Shown: in pieces, positions 14,856-25,731 of the stretch
How the letters are laid out: each line of letters begins with the position of its first letter
How positions within the stretch are numbered: position 1 is the first letter of the stretch
Source of the DNA: an uncultured delta proteobacterium
GTDB lineage: Bacteria > Desulfobacterota > WTBG01 > CAIYCZ01 > CAIRTM01
Assembly: GCA_903881505.1 (NCBI GenBank)
Contig: CAIRTM010000064.1
Span: 1-42,369, forward strand
Length of the DNA: 42,369 bases
Reading direction: 5' to 3'
Program-made: the position numbers and the translations under genes
Notes under the pieces: generated by a model
What the model saw: only the letters and a program-made list of their open reading frames with translations
What the model was told of the DNA's origin: nothing
Databases searched by the model: none

Positions 14856-16283
14856 CTACGGCATGATGGCCAGCAGCCCGCCACGCGCAAGGCTCAAAAA
14901 ATTCTGCGGCAGAAGACCGCCTGCAATAATTGCGACGATAATCAGGAGGCACATGAGCCTGGCGGCCGCGCCGAGCTCTATGTGTTCGGTTTCCTGCTCG
15001 ACATTGCTGTAGGCTGCGCGCACGAGGCGCAGATAATAAAAGGCGGAAATGCACACGTTGAAAACCGCAAGGCCGACCAGCCAGTAATGCTTCTGCTTGA
15101 GCGCCGCGGCGAATATCATGAATTTGCCGGTGAAGCCGATGGTCGGCGGAAGGCCCGCCAGGCCGATCGCACCCAGCACCAGTACGCCCGCCATTATGGG
15201 GGAGCGCTTGTAGAGGCCGCGCAAATCGCGAAAGCGGATATTGCGGCCGTCGTCTGAGAGATTGTAAATAACAAAAAAACAGGCCAGGCTCATCCAGAGA
15301 TACCCGTAAATATAGTACATGGATGAAAGCAGGCCGAACGGCTCAATGCACAAAACACCGATGATCAGGTAGCCGGCATGCGCGATGCTGGAATAGGCCA
15401 GCAGCCTCTTGATGTCCTCCTGCGCCAGCGCAAGCAGGTTTCCCAGCGTCATTGACAGCACAGCCATGATGGCAAGCATGGTGCTCAACTGCTGGCTCGG
15501 CCCGCACAGCGTCACTACCCTGATCAGCAGGGCCGTGGCGGCAATCTTGGGAATGGTCGCCACGAAGGCGGTGGTTTCATGGGCCGCGCCCACGAAAATA
15601 TCGGGCATCCAGAAATGCATCGGAAACAGGGCCAGTTTGTAGAATATGCCGCACAGCATCATCACCAGGCCTATAAGCGCCAGCGGCTGGAGGCTCAGCG
15701 GCCGCGGCAGCGCCGCCATCATGGCAACAAGCTCGGTGGTGCCGGTCAGGCCGAACAGATAGCTCATGCCGTACAGGGTGATGCCGGTCGCAACCAGGCC
15801 GAAGAGGATATACTTGATGCCGGCCTCAAGCGGCGCGCGCTGCCCCACGCCGAAGCGCAGCGGTATGAGGATGTAGACCGCAAACGAGGATATCTCCAGG
15901 CTCAGCAGAATCGTCAGTAGCTCGGTTGCGCTGCACATCATCATCAGGCCCAGGCAGCTCAGGGCGAAGAAGAAATAATACTCGGGCCGCACACTGCGCT
16001 TGACGCCGCGCAGGCCGGTGCCCAGCCATACGACCAGGAGCATGCCCAGCGAGATAAGAATCTTGAATGTCTGTGAAAAAGAGTCGACCCGGTATGCGCC
16101 CGCAAACAGCACCCCGCCGGAGGCATAGGTGAATGTGGAGGCGATCAGAGCCATCAGCGCGAACGCCATGGCAGCCGCCTGCAGCAGCAGGGCATGCGGC
16201 CGCGTGAGGGCACAGGCGAAAAACACCACGGCCATGCCGGCCAGACTCAGCTCCGGGGAAAACAGCACAAGGGTATCAGCCAT
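14856..16283 (-). CDS. nuoN: NADH-quinone oxidoreductase subunit N (NuoN), antiporter-like
   Basis: This 475-residue integral membrane protein has about 14 hydrophobic helices and is one of the proton-pumping antiporter-like subunits of complex I. The conserved charged residues are present: Glu in the TM5 segment LLTILLSLEISSFAVYILI, Lys in the TM7 segment FVATIPKIAATALLI, the DIKRLLAYSSIAHAGYLIIG signature, and Lys in TM12 (GLPPTIGFTGKFMIF). These form the ion path in characterised complexes. It is the last gene of the cluster, 45 bases after nuoM. The downstream side runs directly into a dispersed repeat with no clear terminator. Length and residues look normal. Confidence 0.9.
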   Translation of the reverse strand: MADTLVLFSPELSLAGMAVVFFACALTRPHALLLQAAAMAFALMALIASTFTYASGGVLFAGAYRVDSFSQTFKILISLGMLLVVWLGTGLRGVKRSVRPEYYFFFALSCLGLMMMCSATELLTILLSLEISSFAVYILIPLRFGVGQRAPLEAGIKYILFGLVATGITLYGMSYLFGLTGTTELVAMMAALPRPLSLQPLALIGLVMMLCGIFYKLALFPMHFWMPDIFVGAAHETTAFVATIPKIAATALLIRVVTLCGPSQQLSTMLAIMAVLSMTLGNLLALAQEDIKRLLAYSSIAHAGYLIIGVLCIEPFGLLSSMYYIYGYLWMSLACFFVIYNLSDDGRNIRFRDLRGLYKRSPIMAGVLVLGAIGLAGLPPTIGFTGKFMIFAAALKQKHYWLVGLAVFNVCISAFYYLRLVRAAYSNVEQETEHIELGAAARLMCLLIIVAIIAGGLLPQNFLSLARGGLLAIMP

Positions 16284-16328
16284 AGTAGCTATCCTGTATA
16301 TCCGGGCCGCGGCCGCGGATGCCGAGGC

Positions 16329-17846
16329 TCAGGGTGCCGCGCAGTGCAGCAGCAGATGCTCGACGCTGCAGTTCATGATATCCAGCAGCGGGCCCGGATA
16401 CAGCCCGACCCACACGACCGGCGCGGCCAGCACGGCCATCAAACACCATTCCCTGGCGCTCAAATCTCGTAAGGTTACGTAAAAACCGTCACCGGCATGC
16501 ACGGGCAGGCAGTACACGCCGTCGCAGTCTGCCCAGATCAGCTTCTGCAGCAGGCGCAGCATATAGGCCGCACCAAGCACCACGCCCGGCACCAGCAGCG
16601 CGGCGGCTGGGGGGCTCACACCGAAGGCGGCCAGCATGATAAGGAATTCTCCCACGAAACCGTTGGTGCCGGGAAATCCCATGGCCGCCAGGCCGAACAG
16701 CGCCATAAAAGCCACGAAGGCCGGCATGAGCATACTCAAGCCGGAATTGTTGTGTATCTCGCGGCTGCCGGTGCGTTCGTAGAGCATGCCGACGCCGATA
16801 AAAAGGGCCCCGGTAACCACGCCGTGGTTGATCATCTGAAGCAGTGCGCCCCTGATACCCTGGCTGCTGAACAGGAAAATGCCCAGGGTGGCGAATCCCA
16901 TGTGCGCCACGCTCGAATAGGCGATCAGACGCTTGATATCGGTCTGCGCCAGGGCCAGGCAGCCGCCCAGCACGATGGAGACAAGCGCAAGGCCGATCAT
17001 CACCGGCGCGCAGAAACGGGCCGCATCCGGGGCAATGGGCAGTGCCAGGCGCAGAAAGCCGTAGCAGCCCATTTTCAGAAGCAGGCTCGCAAGAATCACG
17101 CTGCCGGCCGTGGGCGCCTCCACATGCGCAACCGGCAGCCAGGTGTGAAACGGATACAGCGGGATCTTGATGGCGAAGGCCACGGCGCAGGAGATGAAAA
17201 TCAGCATCTGCAGAGGAAACGTCAGTTCCGCCGACATCAGCTCCGGAATAAAGAACGTGTCCGTCTGAACGTACAGCACGATAAGTGCCAGCAGCAGGAA
17301 CACGCTGCCCGCAAGGGTGTAGAGAAAAAACTTGATGGAGGCATAGTCCTTGCGCGGGCCGCCCCAGACCGCGATCAGCAGGTACATGGGAACGAGCATG
17401 CCTTCCCAGAAGATATAAAAGAGCACCGTGTTCAGGCTGATAAACACGCCGATCATGGCCGCCTCCATGAGCAGCAGCACAATAATGAATTCGGCCAGGC
17501 GGTCGCGGATGAAGTGCCAGGAGCACAGAATGCACAGAGGCATCATCAGCGTAGTCAGCAGCACCAGCAGTACGCTGATGCCGTCCACGCCGACAACATA
17601 GTTTAAATCAAGGGCCGGAATCCAGGCGCGCACCTCGGCAAACTGATAGCGCGCGCTCGTGCGGTCAAACAGCATATACAGCGGCAGGGATGCAAGGGCC
17701 GTCAAAACGGTGACGATCAGTCCCCAGATTCTCAGCGCAAGGTCATCCCGCAGCACATGGCATACAAGCGCGCCGACGAGCGGCATCAGCATGATGTAGC
17801 TTAAGACCGGATAGCCGGGGCTGTTAAAAAGCAGGTACTCTTCCAT
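16329..17846 (-). CDS. nuoM: NADH-quinone oxidoreductase subunit M (NuoM), antiporter-like
   Basis: This 505-residue multi-helix membrane protein has typical NuoM motifs: LNTVLFYIFWEGMLVPMYLL (TM5 Glu), HVEAPTAGSVILASLLLKMG (the loop and TM7 Lys), DIKRLIAYSSVAHMGFATLG, INHGVVTGALF, and the TM12 segment GFPGTNGFVGEFLIML. There a Glu replaces the Lys of NuoL and NuoN, a known NuoM trait. It begins 25 bases after the NuoL-like gene and ends 45 before nuoN. The ion-path residues are intact, so it should be a working pump subunit. It is unusual only in its setting, a cluster with no peripheral-arm genes. Confidence 0.92.
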   Translation of the reverse strand: MEEYLLFNSPGYPVLSYIMLMPLVGALVCHVLRDDLALRIWGLIVTVLTALASLPLYMLFDRTSARYQFAEVRAWIPALDLNYVVGVDGISVLLVLLTTLMMPLCILCSWHFIRDRLAEFIIVLLLMEAAMIGVFISLNTVLFYIFWEGMLVPMYLLIAVWGGPRKDYASIKFFLYTLAGSVFLLLALIVLYVQTDTFFIPELMSAELTFPLQMLIFISCAVAFAIKIPLYPFHTWLPVAHVEAPTAGSVILASLLLKMGCYGFLRLALPIAPDAARFCAPVMIGLALVSIVLGGCLALAQTDIKRLIAYSSVAHMGFATLGIFLFSSQGIRGALLQMINHGVVTGALFIGVGMLYERTGSREIHNNSGLSMLMPAFVAFMALFGLAAMGFPGTNGFVGEFLIMLAAFGVSPPAAALLVPGVVLGAAYMLRLLQKLIWADCDGVYCLPVHAGDGFYVTLRDLSAREWCLMAVLAAPVVWVGLYPGPLLDIMNCSVEHLLLHCAAP

Positions 17847-17871
17847 ATATTCCGTTCTCGATCCTGCAGAG

Positions 17872-19653
17872 TTAGTGCAGCATAACGATGATCAGCAGCA
17901 GAAAAAAGAAAATAACCGCCCCGCCGATATAGTGCTGGATCTTGCCCGTCTGGATCAGGCGCAGGGACTCTCCCAGAACCAGGGCTGCCATGGCGAGCCC
18001 GTCGACACATCCGTCGATGCCGCTGCGGTCAAAACGGGTGAGCGCGCCGGAGGCCTTCTGCAGCGGACCGAGGCCGGCACGCTGATACAGCTCGCCGACC
18101 CATTCATTCACGCGGCCGAGCGGCTCTGCGCACAGGCGCACCACAAGCCGTGCACCGCGCCGGTACAGCCAGTCAACATCCAGCAGGATGCCGGCTTTGG
18201 GAGCGAGAAAGCGGCGCATGACATAGAATCCGAGCGCGGCGGCGGCCAGCAGCTGCAAGGTGTGGCTGACGTGCGCCGGCGTATAGACCCGGCATGCCTG
18301 CCGATACGGCAGCAGGGCCTCGAGCAGGCCTGGAAACATGCCGACAGCGAGGCTCAATGCGGCGGTCAGGGCCATGGCCAGCAGCATGTTCCATGGCGGG
18401 TCGCTGACAGTCTGCTCAGCGCCGTCACCGGCCTTCGCAGTGCCGAACCAGATGAACAGGGGCAGCTTGATGCCCACCGACAAAAACGTGCCGACCGACG
18501 CCAGCATCAGCATCAGCTCGAGACCCGGCCGGTGGGCCTGCTCGAGCGCCGTGATCACGAGCGATTTGCTGACAAACCCGCTGGTAAGGGGCAGCCCTGA
18601 AATGGCCAGGGCGCCGACCGCGGTCAGGGCCAGGGTGCGAGGCATCCAGTGCCTGAGGCCTCCCAGTTCATGCAGCCCCGCCCGGCCGGTCTGCAGCACA
18701 ACCGCGCCGATTCCCATGAATAAAAGCCCCTTGTTGAGTATGTTGGAAAGCGCATGCGCGCAGGCCCCGTTTACCGCAAGGTCCGTGCCGATACCGATCG
18801 CGCACACCATGTAGCCCACCTGGCTGATGATGTGATAGGCCAGGATGCGGCGCGCGTCGGTTTCAATCACGGCATAGGCCACGCCGATCAGGGCCATGGC
18901 CGCGCCCAGGGGAGCGAGGATGTCAAGGCCCGCAAAACCGCGCGCCAGGACATACACGGCCGCCTTGGTGGTGAATGCACACAGGAAAATAGCGCCGCCG
19001 GGCGAGGCTTCCGGGTAGGCGTCCGCCACCCACGCATGCAGGGGCGGCACTGCCGCATTCAGCAGAAAACCGGTCAGCATCAGGATGTCGGCAGCGCTCA
19101 GGCCTCCTGCACCCAGCTGCTCAAAGGCAACCGAGCCTCCGCCGCGGCAGCGCAGTACGATGCCTGCCAGCAGCACCAGGGCTCCGGCTGCGTGCACCAG
19201 CACGTAGCGGAATCCGGCTGCCGCCGAGCGGGGGCTTCCGCCCCAGACCAGGAACACGGATGCGAAGGCCATCAATTCCCAGAACACATACAGGCTCAGC
19301 AAATCGCCCGCCAGCACCACGCCCGTGCAGCCGGCCGCATAGGCGAAGGCGGCCGCATGCTGCGTGCGCGAACGCACCTGCAGGCTGTACATCGCCGCCA
19401 GGGCGGCCATGGCGATAAAGCAGTAGAGAAAAACCCTTGCCAGGGAATCGGCGCGGCCCATCAGCAGGTCCATGCCGAGATAGCGCATATGGCCGAAGCG
19501 CTCGGGCAGCGCTCCGGCGGCTGCCAGGGCAGCGCACGGAGCGCCCAGCAGCAGCACCCGCTGAGCACCGGGACTGCGCACGCAGGCCAGCGCAATTGCT
19601 GCGCACAGAAACAGCACGGCAGGATGCAGCGCCAGCTCAGAGATCATCGTCAT
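17872..19653 (-). CDS. NuoL/MrpD-like proton-conducting membrane subunit
   Basis: This 593-residue antiporter-like subunit resembles both NuoL and Mrp/Hyf-type subunits. The ion-path residues are present: TM5 Glu in LLSLYVFWELMAFASVFLVW, TM7 Lys in FLCAFTTKAAVYVLARG, the RRILAYHIISQVGYMVCAIG segment and TM12 Lys in LPLTSGFVSKSLVI. The last 120 residues have the NuoL-like tail: VDWLYRRGARLVV, then LRLIQTGKIQHYIGGA and a final membrane helix. That could form the lateral helix that braces the other pump subunits. It starts 17 bases inside the upstream small gene. I name it NuoL/MrpD-like rather than nuoL because the N-terminal part is divergent and the next large subunit upstream is of the same family. 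Confidence 0.85.
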   Translation of the reverse strand: MTMISELALHPAVLFLCAAIALACVRSPGAQRVLLLGAPCAALAAAGALPERFGHMRYLGMDLLMGRADSLARVFLYCFIAMAALAAMYSLQVRSRTQHAAAFAYAAGCTGVVLAGDLLSLYVFWELMAFASVFLVWGGSPRSAAAGFRYVLVHAAGALVLLAGIVLRCRGGGSVAFEQLGAGGLSAADILMLTGFLLNAAVPPLHAWVADAYPEASPGGAIFLCAFTTKAAVYVLARGFAGLDILAPLGAAMALIGVAYAVIETDARRILAYHIISQVGYMVCAIGIGTDLAVNGACAHALSNILNKGLLFMGIGAVVLQTGRAGLHELGGLRHWMPRTLALTAVGALAISGLPLTSGFVSKSLVITALEQAHRPGLELMLMLASVGTFLSVGIKLPLFIWFGTAKAGDGAEQTVSDPPWNMLLAMALTAALSLAVGMFPGLLEALLPYRQACRVYTPAHVSHTLQLLAAAALGFYVMRRFLAPKAGILLDVDWLYRRGARLVVRLCAEPLGRVNEWVGELYQRAGLGPLQKASGALTRFDRSGIDGCVDGLAMAALVLGESLRLIQTGKIQHYIGGAVIFFFLLLIIVMLH

Positions 19654-19885
19654 AATACTTCTCCGGGCGTTTTAAAAAACGGGCGGCCAGCTTGCATGCG
19701 CCCGCAAGCGAAAAACAGCCCAGCAGCCCGAACAGCGACCAGAAGCCGGGAAAAGACAGCGGGCCCTCGGGCGCATGGCCGGCAGCTGCCGCAATGTCGG
19801 CGGCGGCACCGGCCAGCATGACCGCGACGAGAGGCGTCACCGTACGGGCTTTTTTTACGGTGCGCACGCGGGTGTCATGATTCAT
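19637..19885 (-). CDS. Small two-helix membrane protein inside the nuo cluster, unknown function
   Basis: This 82-residue protein has a basic N-terminus (RVRTVKKARTV), a first hydrophobic helix (about 17-36, TPLVAVMLAGAAADIAAAAG), a short loop, a second helix (about 47-67, FWSLFGLLGCFSLAGACKLA) and an acidic tail YYDDDL. It does not match NuoA, NuoK, MrpE, MrpF or MrpG in any way I can defend. Its ATG overlaps the stop of the upstream NuoL/MrpD-like gene (ATGA), and its last 17 bases overlap the start of the next one, so it is translated with them. This strongly suggests an accessory subunit of the membrane complex. It is a good candidate for a lineage-specific subunit. Confidence 0.72.
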   Translation of the reverse strand: MNHDTRVRTVKKARTVTPLVAVMLAGAAADIAAAAGHAPEGPLSFPGFWSLFGLLGCFSLAGACKLAARFLKRPEKYYDDDL

Positions 19886-21390
19886 GGCAGCACCCGGGTT
19901 GTGATCAGGTCGATGGCCGCGTGCGGCCGCAGGCCCAGCACGACGGAAAGCGCGGCCGTTGCCAGCAGCGCAGCCAGCATGAGCGCCGTCACCGGGCTGT
20001 TGCCGTGCGCGCAGGTAATCGGAGCATGCACGGCAGCACGCCCGTAAAACGCGCGCACGACAACCTCGGCAAAATATACCGTATTCAGCAGGCTGCTCAG
20101 CAGCAGCCCTGCCAGCAGGACAGCATTGTGTATCTCAAGCGTGCCCAGCGCCAGGTACCACTTGCTGACAAAGCCCCCCACGGGCGGAACGCCGATCATG
20201 CTGAGGGCCGCAATGCCGAAAGCGGCAAACACCCAGGGTATCTGGCGTCCCAGGCCGCCCATTTCGCGGATATCCTTTTTACCGGTCATCGCAAAAATTA
20301 CGCCCGCGCAGAAAAAAAGCGTGATTTTTGCGGCTGCATGCGCCGGCATGTGGAACAGCGCTCCGGTAATTCCGCCCGGCGACAGCAGGGCAACCCCCAG
20401 AACGATATAGGAAAGCTGGCTGACGGTCGAATACGCCAGACGGGCTTTCAAATCGGTCTTGGTCATGGCGATAAGCGAGGCGGCAAGAATTGTGAAAAGC
20501 GCCGCGTACGCTGTGGGCAGGCCGAGGCTCAGACGTGCAAGGAGATCGGTGCCGAACACCGAAAGCATGATCCGGCAGATGCAGAACACGCCGGCCTTCA
20601 CCACCACCACGGCATGCAGCAGCGCGCTCACCGGCGCCGGTGCGACCATGGCGGCCGGCAGCCATCCGTGCAGGGGCATGAGCGCCGCCTTGGCGATGCC
20701 CAGCACAAACAGCACGTAGCATATCCTCACCAGCACAGGCGGGGCCGCAGCGGGCAGCATACCGGCTGCGATGTCATGCAGATTAAAATCCAGGGTGCCG
20801 CACTGAGTATAGAGAATCGCCATGGCCGGCAGCAGGCAGGCTTTTGAAGCGAACATCAGGTAGACAATATATGTTCGCGCGCCCGCATAGCTTTTGGCAT
20901 CCTGATGATGAGCCACAAGAGGATAGGTGCTGATCGTGATGAGTTCATAAAAAAGATACAGCGTAAACAGGTTGCCCGCGCAGGCAGCGCCAAGGCCGCC
21001 GCAGAGGGAAACCGCATAAAAAAAATAGAACCGGCTCTGGGCATGCTCGCTCAGGGCGCGCATGTAGCCTATCGAATACAGCGCCGCCGCCGCCCACATC
21101 GCCGCGGCGGTGGCTGCGAACAGCAGGCCGACCCCGTCAAGGCAGAAACGCAGCGAGATGCCGGGGTAGAGCGTGCATACGGTCAGTTCGGGCAGCGCCC
21201 CCTGCATGAAGCCTGCGCCCGCGGCCAGCACCAGCGCAAGCGTCAGCAGCGATCCGGCCACGCACGCGCAGTCGCGCAGGACCGTGTGCGTGCCTGCTGC
21301 CAGCACGGCTGCGGCGGTCGCGAGCGGTACACACGGAACCAGGGCCATGATCGGCGTGCTGTACTGAAGGAACAGTCCCGTCCCCGTCAC
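19882..21390 (-). CDS. Monovalent cation/H+ antiporter subunit D-like (MrpD/NuoL-related) membrane subunit
   Basis: This 502-residue multi-helix protein is a second NuoL/MrpD-like antiporter subunit, beginning with a GTG that overlaps the nuoK stop (GTGA). Ion-path residues: TM5 Glu in LFTLYLFYELITISTYPLVA, TM7 Lys in LLHAVVVVKAGVFCICRI, the DLKARLAYSTVSQLSYIVLG motif and TM12 Lys in GVPPVGGFVSKWYLAL. It lacks the long lateral-helix tail of canonical NuoL and is closer in size to MrpD. Its presence brings the antiporter-like subunits in the cluster to four, where standard complex I has three (L, M, N). A fourth pumping site or a Na+/H+ antiport role are both possible. Confidence 0.83.
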   Translation of the reverse strand: MTGTGLFLQYSTPIMALVPCVPLATAAAVLAAGTHTVLRDCACVAGSLLTLALVLAAGAGFMQGALPELTVCTLYPGISLRFCLDGVGLLFAATAAAMWAAAALYSIGYMRALSEHAQSRFYFFYAVSLCGGLGAACAGNLFTLYLFYELITISTYPLVAHHQDAKSYAGARTYIVYLMFASKACLLPAMAILYTQCGTLDFNLHDIAAGMLPAAAPPVLVRICYVLFVLGIAKAALMPLHGWLPAAMVAPAPVSALLHAVVVVKAGVFCICRIMLSVFGTDLLARLSLGLPTAYAALFTILAASLIAMTKTDLKARLAYSTVSQLSYIVLGVALLSPGGITGALFHMPAHAAAKITLFFCAGVIFAMTGKKDIREMGGLGRQIPWVFAAFGIAALSMIGVPPVGGFVSKWYLALGTLEIHNAVLLAGLLLSSLLNTVYFAEVVVRAFYGRAAVHAPITCAHGNSPVTALMLAALLATAALSVVLGLRPHAAIDLITTRVLP

Positions 21391-21770
21391 AGATGATCCC
21401 CCGGCCCGCCCGCTGCGAACGCATCATCGTCGGCGTCAGATTTCCGTCCGGGAATCTCCTCCTGCAGTTCGTTGAGCTGAATCGGATCAATCGTTTTGAA
21501 CTGCCGGTACACCGCCAGGATAAAGCTGACGCCGATTGCCGTTTCCGCTGCGGCGATTCCCATGATGATCAGGGTGAACACCTGGCCCACGGCCGGTTCC
21601 GGTGCCAGGAAGCGGTTGAACGCCATAAAATTAAGGCCGGCCCCGGCCAGGATGAGCTCGGCCGAAATCAGCATGCCGATAAAACTGCGGCGCTGCACAA
21701 CCCCGTAGACGCCGATAATCAGCAGAAAGGCCGCCACCACCAGATAGGTCTTCAGATCCTGCGAAAGCAT
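21387..21770 (-). CDS. nuoK: NADH-quinone oxidoreductase subunit K (NuoK), long form
   Basis: This 127-residue protein has three transmembrane helices and the two membrane-embedded glutamates typical of NuoK: in MLISAELILAGAGLNFMAF (second helix) and IAAAETAIGVSFILAVYRQ (third helix). The family norm is about 100 residues; here an extra hydrophilic, acidic tail of about 25 residues follows (IPGRKSDADDD and on). MrpC is a homologue, but the NuoJ neighbour favours NuoK. The start shares bases with the nuoJ stop (TGATG), and the end overlaps the next gene by 4 bases, so translation is coupled throughout. Confidence 0.87.
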   Translation of the reverse strand: MLSQDLKTYLVVAAFLLIIGVYGVVQRRSFIGMLISAELILAGAGLNFMAFNRFLAPEPAVGQVFTLIIMGIAAAETAIGVSFILAVYRQFKTIDPIQLNELQEEIPGRKSDADDDAFAAGGPGDHL

Positions 21771-22288
21771 CAGCGCGGGTCCTCCTTGACCGTTACCACG
21801 ATAATCGCGCCGATAATGGCGATCAGCAGCAGCACCGAGATCAACTCGAAGGCCAGCCCGTAGCGCTCAAGCAGCTGGCGCCCCACCGCCGCCAGTGAAA
21901 AGTCGCGCGCCGCATCAGGCGAGGCCGGCCAGACGGTTCGGCCCACGGCACCGCGCAGCAAAATGACTGCGGCGATACAGGCCGGCACGGCCAGCAGCAG
22001 GTTCTGGCTGCGGATGCCCTGCTCGGCCACCTGGCGCGGCGTATATCCCACCATGATGCCGAACACCAGCACAATGCAGATAGCGCCGAGATAGATCAGT
22101 ATCTGCATCATGCAGAGAAAAAGGCTGCCCAGGAACATGAACAGTCCCGCTATGCCCAGAAAGGCCAGCGCCGCCCCGAGCACGGTATACATCAGAATCT
22201 GCGTGCGCACCGCCAGGACGCCGCCGGCAACGGTCAGGGCGATAAACGCATAAAAAACAGCCTCAAGAAACACATCGGTCAATCCCAT
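21770..22288 (-). CDS. nuoJ: NADH-quinone oxidoreductase subunit J (NuoJ)
   Basis: This 172-residue membrane protein has five hydrophobic helices and the NuoJ pattern AVRTQILMYTVLGAALAFLGIAGLF, then MMQILIYLGAICIVLVFGIMV (the helix with the pi-bulge in known structures) and a final IIGAIIVVTVKEDPR. It is the first gene of the membrane-arm cluster. I chose the ATG at 22288 because GAGG lies six bases upstream on the minus strand; an earlier in-frame start at 22324 adds 12 hydrophilic residues without a better site. The 72 bases back to the kinase gene show no promoter I can defend, so read-through from the signalling genes is possible. Confidence 0.88.
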   Translation of the reverse strand: MGLTDVFLEAVFYAFIALTVAGGVLAVRTQILMYTVLGAALAFLGIAGLFMFLGSLFLCMMQILIYLGAICIVLVFGIMVGYTPRQVAEQGIRSQNLLLAVPACIAAVILLRGAVGRTVWPASPDAARDFSLAAVGRQLLERYGLAFELISVLLLIAIIGAIIVVTVKEDPR

Positions 22289-22360
22289 GATAGACCTCGC
22301 GCCGGCTCTGCCGTCACATGGCACATGCGGCTCCCCGGACAGCAGCGGCAGGAACGCGGT

Positions 22361-25351
22361 TCAATATCTGCCTTCAAGGCGCCTGCGCGCCATATTGACA
22401 ACGTCCATGATATGCGAAACCTGAAAGGGCTTGTTCAGGACAAAATCGATACGGTACTTCTCGATATTCTCCTGTTCGTAGTGGACATCCCAGCCCGTTA
22501 CCAGCGCAACCAGTACCTGGGCGCGGATGCGCTTGACTTCGCGGGCCACGTCCCAGCCGGACATTCCCGGCATGCCCAGATCGGTGAATACAAGGTCGAA
22601 CGGCTCTGCGCGAAACAGCTCAAGGCCTTCGGAGCCGTCAAGGGCGCTCTCCACACGATGGCCTTCGCCGGCCAGCATGTCGGCCAGCACATCGCGCACA
22701 TCCTCATCATCATCGATAACCAGCACGCGCAGCCTGGCGCCGGTCCCTGCGGGTGGGGTATCGCTGCGCAGGCGCTCCTGTATCCGGCCAAGCGGCAGCA
22801 CGACCGTCAGGGTCGTACCGCGGCCTTCCTCGCTCACAGCGCTGATGGATCCCCTGTGGCGCCTGATAATGCCGTAGGAAACGCTCATGCCGAGCCCGGT
22901 CGAGCGGGGGCCCTTGGTGGTGAAGAAAGGATCGAAAATGCGGTCGATGATCGACGGCGCAATCCCGATGCCCGTGTCCTGCACCGTGACCGTCGCCGCT
23001 GCCCCGTCGCACGCGGCGGCAAAGTAGAGGGTGCCGCCCCGGGGCATCGCGTCAAGGCTGTTATTGATGAGGTTGGTAAACACCTCGCGCAGCTCGGCCG
23101 CATTGCCCATGACCGGCACCGGGGCGCTGATCGTGTTCTCGATACGGTAGCGCAGCCCTTTCAGCTCAGCGTCATCCTTCCAGCGCACGCGGGTGTAATC
23201 AAGCGCTCCGCTGATAACGTCGGCCAGATCAACCGATGAGGAAAAACGCTGGCTTCTGCCGGCGCGCGAAAAGTCCTGGATACGGCGTACGGTTTCGGCT
23301 CCGTCCAGGGCCGCGCTCTCGATCACGGAAAGCCCCTTTTCAATCTCGGCCGGCCGTTCAGCGCCGGCCTGCTGCAGAACCGCGCCGATCATGCGCTTTA
23401 AAAGCTGTGCGCGCCCCAGAATCGCCGTCAGCACATTGTTGAAATCGTGCGCCACGCCGCTGGCCATTTCGCCGAGGGACTTTAATTTCTCGGTCTGCAG
23501 CAGCCTGTGTTCAATGGCGCGCCGCTCGGTTATATCGCGCACCGCCGCCACAGCTCCCGTGGCGTTGCCGTCGCGGTCGCGCAGAAAGGTGACATTGATT
23601 TCAACCGGCAGGCGGGATCCGTCCTTGCGGCACCAGTCCGTTTCCCAGTTCTGCACCGAACCCTCACGGCGCAGCAGCGCGGCCATTTCGAGCCCCTGAC
23701 GGCGGTAGTCGCCGCCTCCCGGAAAAAAATCAAGCGCCGAACGGCCGATCATTTCCCGCTCATCATAGCCCAGCATTTTTTCGATCGTGCTGTTGACCCG
23801 CAGTATCCGCCCGTCGGTATCGCTGACAACGATACCGTCATTGGTTGTCCTGAAGACATTTTCAAGAAATTCGCGGGCTTCGCGCTGCTGCTCGTTCAGC
23901 GCCACCAGGTCCGCCTCGGCCTTTTTGCGCTCCGTTATGTCGCGCACGATGAAGGCGCGCATGGTATCCTGCCCTGTGCCCCAGCGCGTTATTGAAAACT
24001 CGAGCGGAAAAAGGCCGCCGTTTTTCCTCTGCCCCATGCCCTCGGAAGTTGCCTGCATGCCGGGCATGGTATCGCGTGTGTCCATGGTCGCCAGCATGTC
24101 TGCGTGCAGCGGACGGTCTGCTTCCGGAACAAGCATGACTACCGGCCGGCCGAGGATTTCACCCGGGCGGTAGCCGTAAATCCTTTCAGCGCCCTGGTTC
24201 CAGAAGACAATATCGCCCCGCGCGTCGATAATAACGATTGCTTCATTGGCGAGCTGCACCACGGCGCGGAAGCGCTCTTCGCTCTCGCGCAGGGCCTGCT
24301 CGCCTGATCGCAGCTGGCGGTTGACGGCCTGCAGCTGCTCATTGGATGCGATAAGCTGCTGGTTCGCGGCCCGCAGCTCCTGCTCACGGGCCTGCAGTTG
24401 CGCGGTTTTGGCCTGCACCATCTCATGGAGGCGCGCGCGATGCTGTTCAAGTTCCTGCTCAATCACCCGTCTGCTGCTGATGTCGCGGATGATGGCCATG
24501 GCGCCGACTGTTTTCCCGTCCTCTCCGTGCAGCACGACGATATTGCCCTCGACCGGAACGAGCTGCCTGTCTTTGCGGACAAGGTAGTATTCCCATCCGG
24601 CTATGCGGCCTGTTTCGGATATCTCCCGCTGCAATGTCCGGGACTCGGCAATAGAGGCATCGTCAACCGTAAATGTCTGCCCGATGATGCTTCGGTATTC
24701 ACCGGGTTCAAGATGCGTGAGCAGAGCATGATTCTGGCCGATCAGCTCCTCCCGGCTGTAGCCGCTCAGTTCAAGCACGGCCCGGTTGACCCGCACGATG
24801 CTGCCGCCCTCGCCGGACACGACAATGCTGTCAACTGAGCTCTCAAAGACATTATCGGCAAAGCGCATCATCTCACGCAGCTGCTCCTCGGCGCTGCGGC
24901 GCTCCTCAACCTCGCCGCTGAGATCGCTGACGGTGCGCTGCAGACGCTGCTGCAGCCTGCGCATGTGGCCGACCAGCAGGGCGATGCCGATCAGGGAAGC
25001 GGTGCCCGGGATAAGGGCGCCCCGGACAACGACATGTTCCTGCCAGTCAATCCCGAAAGCCATGCACAGGGCGCTGTTGGCGGCAACGCTCAGCAGCGCC
25101 GCCAGCACGCCCCAAGGCATGCCGAACAGCCAGGCCGCAGCCACGACCGGGATAACGACAACAAGGGTCATGCCCCTGCCCACCAGCACATGCATCAGGT
25201 AAAAAATACCGGCATACGCCAGCAGGGCTGCTGTCATCACAACCGCGGGTTTTCTGAGGAACGGGGGCATGAACGAACGGCTCACGCCGGATATGCCGAT
25301 GCTTTCGCGGACCTTTGCGTCCGGCTGGGGCTTTGATGCGGGCGTGCTCAT
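22361..25351 (-). CDS. Membrane-bound hybrid sensor histidine kinase with three PAS domains and a C-terminal receiver
   Basis: This 996-residue inner-membrane signal protein has, in order: a hydrophobic N-terminal region (about 35-127, four or so helices, possibly an integral-membrane sensor); PAS1 (about 165-290, ending [12 protein letters not shown]); a long Gln/Glu-rich coiled coil (about 295-355); PAS2 (about 358-480, [13 protein letters not shown]); PAS3 (about 495-620, [13 protein letters not shown]); a HisKA domain with the phospho-acceptor in [16 protein letters not shown]; and an HATPase domain with the N-box [18 protein letters not shown] and [11 protein letters not shown]. It ends with a receiver (about 875-996) whose acceptor Asp is in [17 protein letters not shown] overlaps the upstream receiver gene by 4 bases, so they are co-translated. 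The stimulus is unknown; PAS domains suggest redox or small-ligand sensing. Confidence 0.9.
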
Positions 25352-25731
25352 GCGTCCCGGGCAAGGATAGTACGTATTTTTTGATCGAGCACGGCCACGC
25401 TGAAGGGTTTGAGCACATAGTCGCTCACCCCGGCCTGCACCGCCTCAAGCACTCTGGTTTTTTCGGCCTCGCCGGTCATGAAAAGGACCGGAATCTCCTG
25501 CAGGTCGGCGTCGGATCGTACGGCCCGCAGCAGATCGATGCCGTCCATGCCGGGCATATCAAGGTCGGTGATAACCAGCCCGACCGGGGTTGAACGGATC
25601 ATAGAGAGGGCCGTGTGGCCGTCAGGCGCTTCCAGCACGCGGTTGAACCCGAGATGCTTCAGGATACTGCGCACGGACATGCGCATCGCCTCCAGATCAT
25701 CGACAACGAGTATGCTGATATCCATGTTCAC
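25348..25731 (-). CDS. Single-domain response regulator (CheY-like receiver)
   Basis: The 127 residues form one receiver domain with all key positions: the acidic pair in ILVVDDLEAM, the phospho-acceptor Asp in LVITDLDMPGMDG, the switch Thr in VLFMTGEAEK and the Lys in YVLKPFS. No output domain is attached, so it works through protein contacts or as a phosphate carrier to the hybrid kinase encoded next (4-base overlap). It starts 73 bases after lpxA; no promoter is clear in that gap. A GGGGGTT stretch precedes the ATG at a workable distance. Confidence 0.9.
   Translation of the reverse strand: MNMDISILVVDDLEAMRMSVRSILKHLGFNRVLEAPDGHTALSMIRSTPVGLVITDLDMPGMDGIDLLRAVRSDADLQEIPVLFMTGEAEKTRVLEAVQAGVSDYVLKPFSVAVLDQKIRTILARDA

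Follow-up and report, generated by a model that had tools for sequence, protein, structure and literature searches.

A probable membrane-arm operon of a four-antiporter complex I with two MrpD-like subunits in an uncultured Desulfobacterota bacterium

A block of seven genes in an uncultured member of the Desulfobacterota is, with high probability, the membrane-arm operon of a complex I that has four antiporter-like subunits, two of them MrpD-like (D1 and D2), and that assembles with NuoABCDHI, from which the operon has been split in this genus. The window, i.e. the whole stretch of DNA that was analysed, is the complete contig C64 (42,369 bases) of a draft genome of 3.16 Mb (149 contigs, 97% complete).

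As given in a preliminary description of this DNA, nuoJ, nuoK, the genes for 502-, 82- and 593-residue proteins, nuoM and nuoN are open reading frames on the same strand, and their Pfam and NCBIfam identities agree with these names (Table 1). The spacings were re-measured with the same result, that is, overlaps from nuoJ to the 593-residue gene (nuoJ/nuoK -1, nuoK/D1 -4, D1/small protein -4 and small protein/D2 -17) and gaps of 25 and 45 bases before nuoM and nuoN. The ATG of nuoJ at 22288 is preceded by a GAGG ribosome-binding-like site, and a GTG at 22324 is a possible alternative start. The best NCBIfam match of D1 (NF006236, 606 bits) is under the cut-off of that model (663), and the match of D2 (NF009310, 618 bits) is over its cut-off (564). 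Downstream of nuoN, the neighbouring gene is convergent.

Table 1. Features of the block and of the genes upstream of it (positions in the window)
Feature	Position	Strand	Length and basis
nuoN	14856..16283	-	475 aa; TIGR01770 337.9 bits, cut-off 332.6
nuoM	16329..17846	-	505 aa; TIGR01972 554.8 bits, cut-off 263.8
D2, MrpD-like antiporter subunit with C-terminal lateral helix	17872..19653	-	593 aa; tree, residues
Lateral helix (HL), D2 residues 494-570	17944..18174	-	Motif spacing; low-confidence model
Codon of D2 Asn199 (TM7 Lys site)	19057..19059	-	Gapless alignment to E. coli NuoL
Small two-helix membrane protein	19637..19885	-	82 aa; between D1 and D2
D1, MrpD-like antiporter subunit	19882..21390	-	502 aa, GTG start; PF00361, tree, residues
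nuoK	21387..21770	-	127 aa; PF00420 1.6e-20; NF004320 above cut-off
nuoJ	21770..22288	-	172 aa; PF00499 1.7e-26; NuoJ models
Hybrid sensor kinase (PAS, HisKA, HATPase, REC)	22361..25351	-	996 aa; stop 72 bp upstream of nuoJ
Response regulator and hybrid kinase	22361..25731	-	Overlapping genes

No promoter-like match was found in the 72 bp between the kinase gene and nuoJ, and the membrane-arm genes may be co-transcribed with those for the kinase and the response regulator. The same kinase/regulator arrangement is present upstream of nuoJ in the sister genome G104.

The rest of the enzyme and the nuoI/nuoJ split

The preliminary description had regarded the block as a membrane arm alone, perhaps a platform for another electron-input module encoded elsewhere. 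It is true for contig C64 that the block has no nuoA-I, hydrogenase or formate module beside it. At the genome level, however, the arm has company: nuoA, B, C, D, H and I lie in that order on contig C67 (~C67:25916-29904), in the interior of this 55-kb contig and with unrelated genes on both sides. Thus, the rest of the enzyme is indeed encoded elsewhere, literally on a different contig rather than just outside the window in the same transcript, and the partner is an ordinary nuoABCDHI set and no foreign module. NuoI of C67 has two CxxCxxCxxxCP motifs, and NuoB has its Cys set.

Searching the genome one family at a time, we found a single complex I-type NuoD and a single NuoH, both on C67, the second matches to each (on C136) being members of a Hyf-type hydrogenase cluster. 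The antiporter-like genes detected genome-wide were the four of the block and two in the same cluster on C136; no second nuoJ-N set, which had been considered as a possible supplier of these subunits, no canonical NuoL, no MrpE and no match for MrpA was present. The C136 locus (L012, 1771-9152) is hydrogenase-4-like and encodes a 49-kDa-type subunit along with its two antiporter-like proteins. No complex I was detected in this genome besides the one that would combine the J-N block with the nuoABCDHI of C67. Since these two sets are each other's sole partners, we infer, on strong grounds, that they would form one enzyme.

nuoEFG are absent from both sets (J-N on C64 and A-I on C67), and the enzyme was therefore classed as a headless form under the wider two-MrpD kind. 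Three NuoF-domain proteins of the genome were considered as the missing NADH module and set aside: all are on contigs other than C64 and C67, and one of them, on C60, adjoins an [FeFe]-hydrogenase catalytic protein. At that place (L083, 996-5351), NuoE-, NuoF- and [FeFe]-hydrogenase-type proteins are encoded in a row and represent a soluble NAD-linked hydrogenase set. Most loci of Desulfobacterota and Verrucomicrobiota also had no EFG in the stretch read, and EFG were present at the loci of rhizobia, Photobacterium and one member of Nitrospirota.

The synteny comparison covered 19 loci of the phylum and another 80 taken from named genomes. The relatives' contiguous cluster has the order nuoABCDHIJK-D1-small-D2-MN and was seen, among others, in another genus of the same family (L053/G034). 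The order J-K-D1-small-D2-M-N was found in nearly all loci, and nuoI directly adjoins nuoJ in the 76 loci that have nuoJ and upstream sequence, the exceptions to this adjacency being the sister species G104, rhizobia and one Ruegeria. G104, the one other genome of the genus, is cut likewise between nuoI and nuoJ; its J-N genes are collinear with those of the window, with 5.8 kb of non-nuo sequence upstream, and the J-N flank is shared at 82-83% DNA identity. The nuoCDHI contig of G104 is only 3.3 kb long, so that the split can be seen in full, on both sides, in one genome only. By synteny, the ancestral cluster was a single operon, and the break between nuoI and nuoJ arose in this genus.

A different reading would make the block an autonomous ion-translocating platform, or the partner of some other electron-input module and not of NuoABCDHI. 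Such a role could be suggested by the location of the genes apart from nuoA-I and beside a sensor kinase, as well as by the D1-small-D2 triplets of certain Mrp-type operons (see below). However, nuoABCDHI would then have no J, K, M and N partner in the genome, the cluster is intact and contiguous in the 76 loci mentioned above, NuoM, NuoN, D1 and D2 fall in the same clades as their intact-cluster counterparts, and MrpE and MrpA are missing, so that we consider this reading improbable. An assembly or binning artefact that divided a really contiguous cluster is still less probable since, although the genome is a draft and most relatives have contiguous nuo clusters, each of the two pieces lies within a contig and is flanked on either side by unrelated genes, and the sister genome has the same J-N flank.

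Identity of the two MrpD-like subunits

In a phylogenetic tree of 86 antiporter-like proteins, built by a quick method with SH-aLRT as the only measure of support, D1 and D2 each formed a clade of their own (17 rows each, support 100) that included the proteins of S. meliloti and excluded canonical NuoL, MrpA, ordinary MrpD, NuoM and NuoN. The tree of the 502- and 593-residue proteins proposed earlier thus yielded two MrpD-like clades, neither of which is canonical NuoL or ordinary MrpD, and the fourth antiporter-like subunit that had been noted in the membrane arm is corroborated by the tree, by NCBIfam and by the S. meliloti block. That the 502-residue protein is an ordinary MrpD was ruled out by the tree and by the absence of MrpA and MrpE. 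In a structure search, D2 grouped with MrpA/NuoL/NdhF chains.

Two MrpD-like subunits have been reported to replace NuoL in the so-called green complex I (PMC9040806; PMC7415380), and a passage of PMC9040806 cites the four-antiporter architecture as that of the green complex I of rhizobia. The S. meliloti genome contains an identical seven-gene block, annotated as nuoJ, nuoK, antiporter D, hypothetical, antiporter D, nuoM and nuoN, in which the hypothetical protein between the two antiporter genes has 84 residues. Its proteins resemble those of the window in their D1 and D2 clades, in an HL spacing of 76 and in a TM7 Asn (N195). In S. meliloti, this block is followed by nuoABCDEFG, whereas in the window genome nuoABCDHI is at another locus and nuoEFG, which the rhizobial version encodes with the complex, is lacking. 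Four-pump enzymes such as the 2M complex I of Nitrospira (Chadwick et al. 2018, as cited in PMC9040806 and PMC7419157) likewise combine four antiporter-like subunits with a lateral helix of increased length; there, an extra NuoM is found beside NuoL, whereas here D1 and D2 replace NuoL. In Complex_I_3 of Ca. Manganitrophaceae, a pair of MrpD-like subunits akin to the green type is present as well, but an additional NuoM brings the antiporter-like subunits to five, and HL of MrpD2 is longer by another insert of 26 residues (PMC9040806).

The canonical 14-subunit complex I has one NuoL and NuoEFG; here, the former is absent from the genome and the latter from both gene sets. The features of the two-MrpD kind are all present, namely four antiporter-like subunits, the J-K-D1-small-D2-M-N order and NuoABCDHI in the genome. 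The four-antiporter gene content is therefore of an already known kind and no surprise given green complex I. Among other members of the same family, L180, L181 and L182 have a canonical complex I including NuoL (in L180 and L181, a protein of ~655 residues with only a weak NuoF match lies between nuoD and nuoG), and G185 has both types of complex I.

It is very unlikely that D1 (and D2) are free Mrp-like Na+/H+ antiporters inserted by chance into a nuo operon, leaving a complex I minus its distal subunit. NCBIfam does label both as 'Na+/H+ antiporter subunit D', and related triplets occur in Mrp operons, but a Mrp Na+/H+ antiporter combines MrpD with MrpA, B, C, E, F and G, and none of MrpB, C, E, F and G is encoded in the block. 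The preliminary description had named a free Mrp antiporter with MrpE-G nearby as a finding that would speak against it; neither MrpE nor a match for MrpA turned up in the genome, nor did Mrp small subunits in the block. Moreover, D2 carries a lateral helix and a terminal QTG-x-[IV]-QHY helix that free Mrp versions lack, and in Desulfobacterota, Verrucomicrobiota, Nitrospirota and Proteobacteria alike, D1 and D2 keep their place between nuoK and nuoM.

The Mrp-type operons in question, L192 (703-7141), L193 and L194, are from the same phylum and encode three antiporter subunits as D0-D1-small-D2. Their triplet is homologous to that of complex I: the small protein is present, and D2 has Asn at the TM7 position. 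Unlike the block, it adjoins MrpG/MbhD/MbhE/MnhB/MrpC genes, and the HL end that is present in complex I D2 is unconserved in these free Mrp D2 proteins.

The small protein, of 82 to 90 residues, is predicted to form two helices, carries an [ED]-[YF]-Y motif at its C-terminus and was found between D1 and D2 in 98 of the 99 loci, the exception being a contig that starts after the site of this gene. It is covered by no Pfam or NCBIfam model, and scattered matches of single members to such models were set aside as chance matches. Its predicted structure (helices 13-34 and 48-71; mean pLDDT 70, pTM 0.42) was considered too weak to search for related folds. The protein probably serves D1 and D2 specifically, as a subunit or as an assembly factor.

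Lateral helix and ion path of D2

D2 ends with a NuoL-like lateral and terminal helix that includes the QTG motif. Of the 94 D2 sequences measured, 83, among them those of S. meliloti and the window, have a distance of 76 residues from a D-x-x-Y motif to this terminal motif (most outliers were slips of the pattern, which were inspected by eye when printed, and the pattern had no match in some sequences). In canonical NuoL the same distance is 51 in most of the phylum and 47 in E. coli. HL of D2 is thus 25 residues, or ~37 angstroms of helix, longer than in canonical NuoL (76 vs 51), which is the lengthening known as a hallmark of four-pump enzymes. Comparison with S. meliloti only had suggested no insertion, a reading ruled out by comparison with canonical NuoL of the same phylum and of E. 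coli. An AlphaFold model of D2 has a continuous helix at 495-592, with low confidence in the HL part (pLDDT 50-60). Complexes that have gained one antiporter are reported to carry an insert of 26 residues (PMC9040806). The excess of 25 residues in D2 is close to this value, supports a place for D1 between NuoM and D2, and would fit a helix that spans a fourth antiporter.

All four large subunits had been described as keeping a TM5 acidic residue, a TM7 Lys and a TM12 Lys or Glu. This holds for TM5 (E149, E126, E148 and E130 in D1, D2, NuoM and NuoN, respectively) and TM12 (K410, K363, E400 and K387), but not for TM7, where Lys is present in D1 (K234), NuoM (K227) and NuoN (K216) and D2 has N199. 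A TM8 Lys is present in D1 (K265) and D2 (K230). The D2 segment NAAVPPLHAW aligns without gaps with KSAQLPLQTW of E. coli NuoL at the K229 site. Asn occupies this position in 99 of 100 D2 homologues from Desulfobacterota, Verrucomicrobiota, Nitrospirota, Alpha- and Gammaproteobacteria, and Ser in one; the sole D2 with Ser (L152, 9962-11773) is from a locus with a nuoM-nuoN pair just upstream of its nuoA. The TM7 Lys was present in all 93 D1 sequences, and in NuoM and NuoN in all but two motif mismatches. Invariant in D2 (100/100) were Glu126, Arg149 and His154 of TM6, Lys230 of TM8, Lys308, Lys363 of TM12 and Lys396.

LysTMH7 has been described as absolutely conserved and essential, and as the coupling point with GluTMH5, in a structural study of Mrp (PMC7419157). 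In PMC4938563, K229 is called 'universally conserved' and a severe loss of complex I activity in K229A is cited, although the mutation had little effect in the Bacillus complementation test of that study. A search restricted to open-access papers returned no report of an Asn at TM7 in D2. With Asn in place of the TM7 Lys, D2 represents a natural exception to the Lys rule, and the fixation of its other key residues argues against a decayed pump; changed gating appears more likely than no pumping. The fourth ion channel suggested earlier is thus retained as a fourth antiporter-like subunit, but, as D2 is without the TM7 Lys, not as an established channel of the usual kind.

We put at about even chances the broader proposal that D2 is a rewired antiporter in all two-MrpD complexes I, those of rhizobia included, and that the two-helix protein belongs to the enzyme as a subunit dedicated to D1 and D2. 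In such a rewired D2, TM7 Lys would be replaced by Asn throughout, TM6 His154 and Lys396 would be D2-specific invariants, and TM5 Glu, TM8 Lys and TM12 Lys would be fixed.

Putative mechanism and implications

In the proposed mechanism, electrons would be passed directly to the NuoBCDI arm, there being no NuoEFG head, and quinone would be reduced at NuoB/D/H; by analogy with other headless complexes I, ferredoxin might be guessed as the donor of the headless form. A change in charge would then run through H, A, J and K to N, M, D1 and D2, with D2 farthest out (the order of subunits in the arm is based on HL length and homology). The lateral helix of D2, with its 25 residues beyond that of NuoL, would tie all four antiporters together. 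N, M and D1 would each move one proton in the usual way. The coupling of D2 would have to differ, with Asn for the TM7 Lys and TM5 Glu, TM8 Lys and TM12 Lys kept, and judging from these residues a normal fourth proton via D2 would not be assured.

Four-antiporter complexes I have served as an argument that five protons are moved per two electrons and that energy-poor and nitrogen-fixing bacteria save energy efficiently. Because D2 is without the TM7 Lys, a fifth pumped proton should not be assumed. If the rewired-D2 proposal is true, D2 either pumps by a different gating or serves as an anchor without pumping; if it is a non-pumping anchor, the enzyme would move 4, not 5, protons per 2 electrons. 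On the genetic side, the block-wise separation of J-N from A-I, found in rhizobia too, shows that the membrane arm acts as a genetic module, which has parted from A-I at least twice. The invariant Asn of D2, the matching HL length and the nameless small subunit would be of interest to specialists, and the D2 family, which has all key residues but the TM7 Lys, offers a test of the indispensability of this Lys and of pumping by extra subunits.
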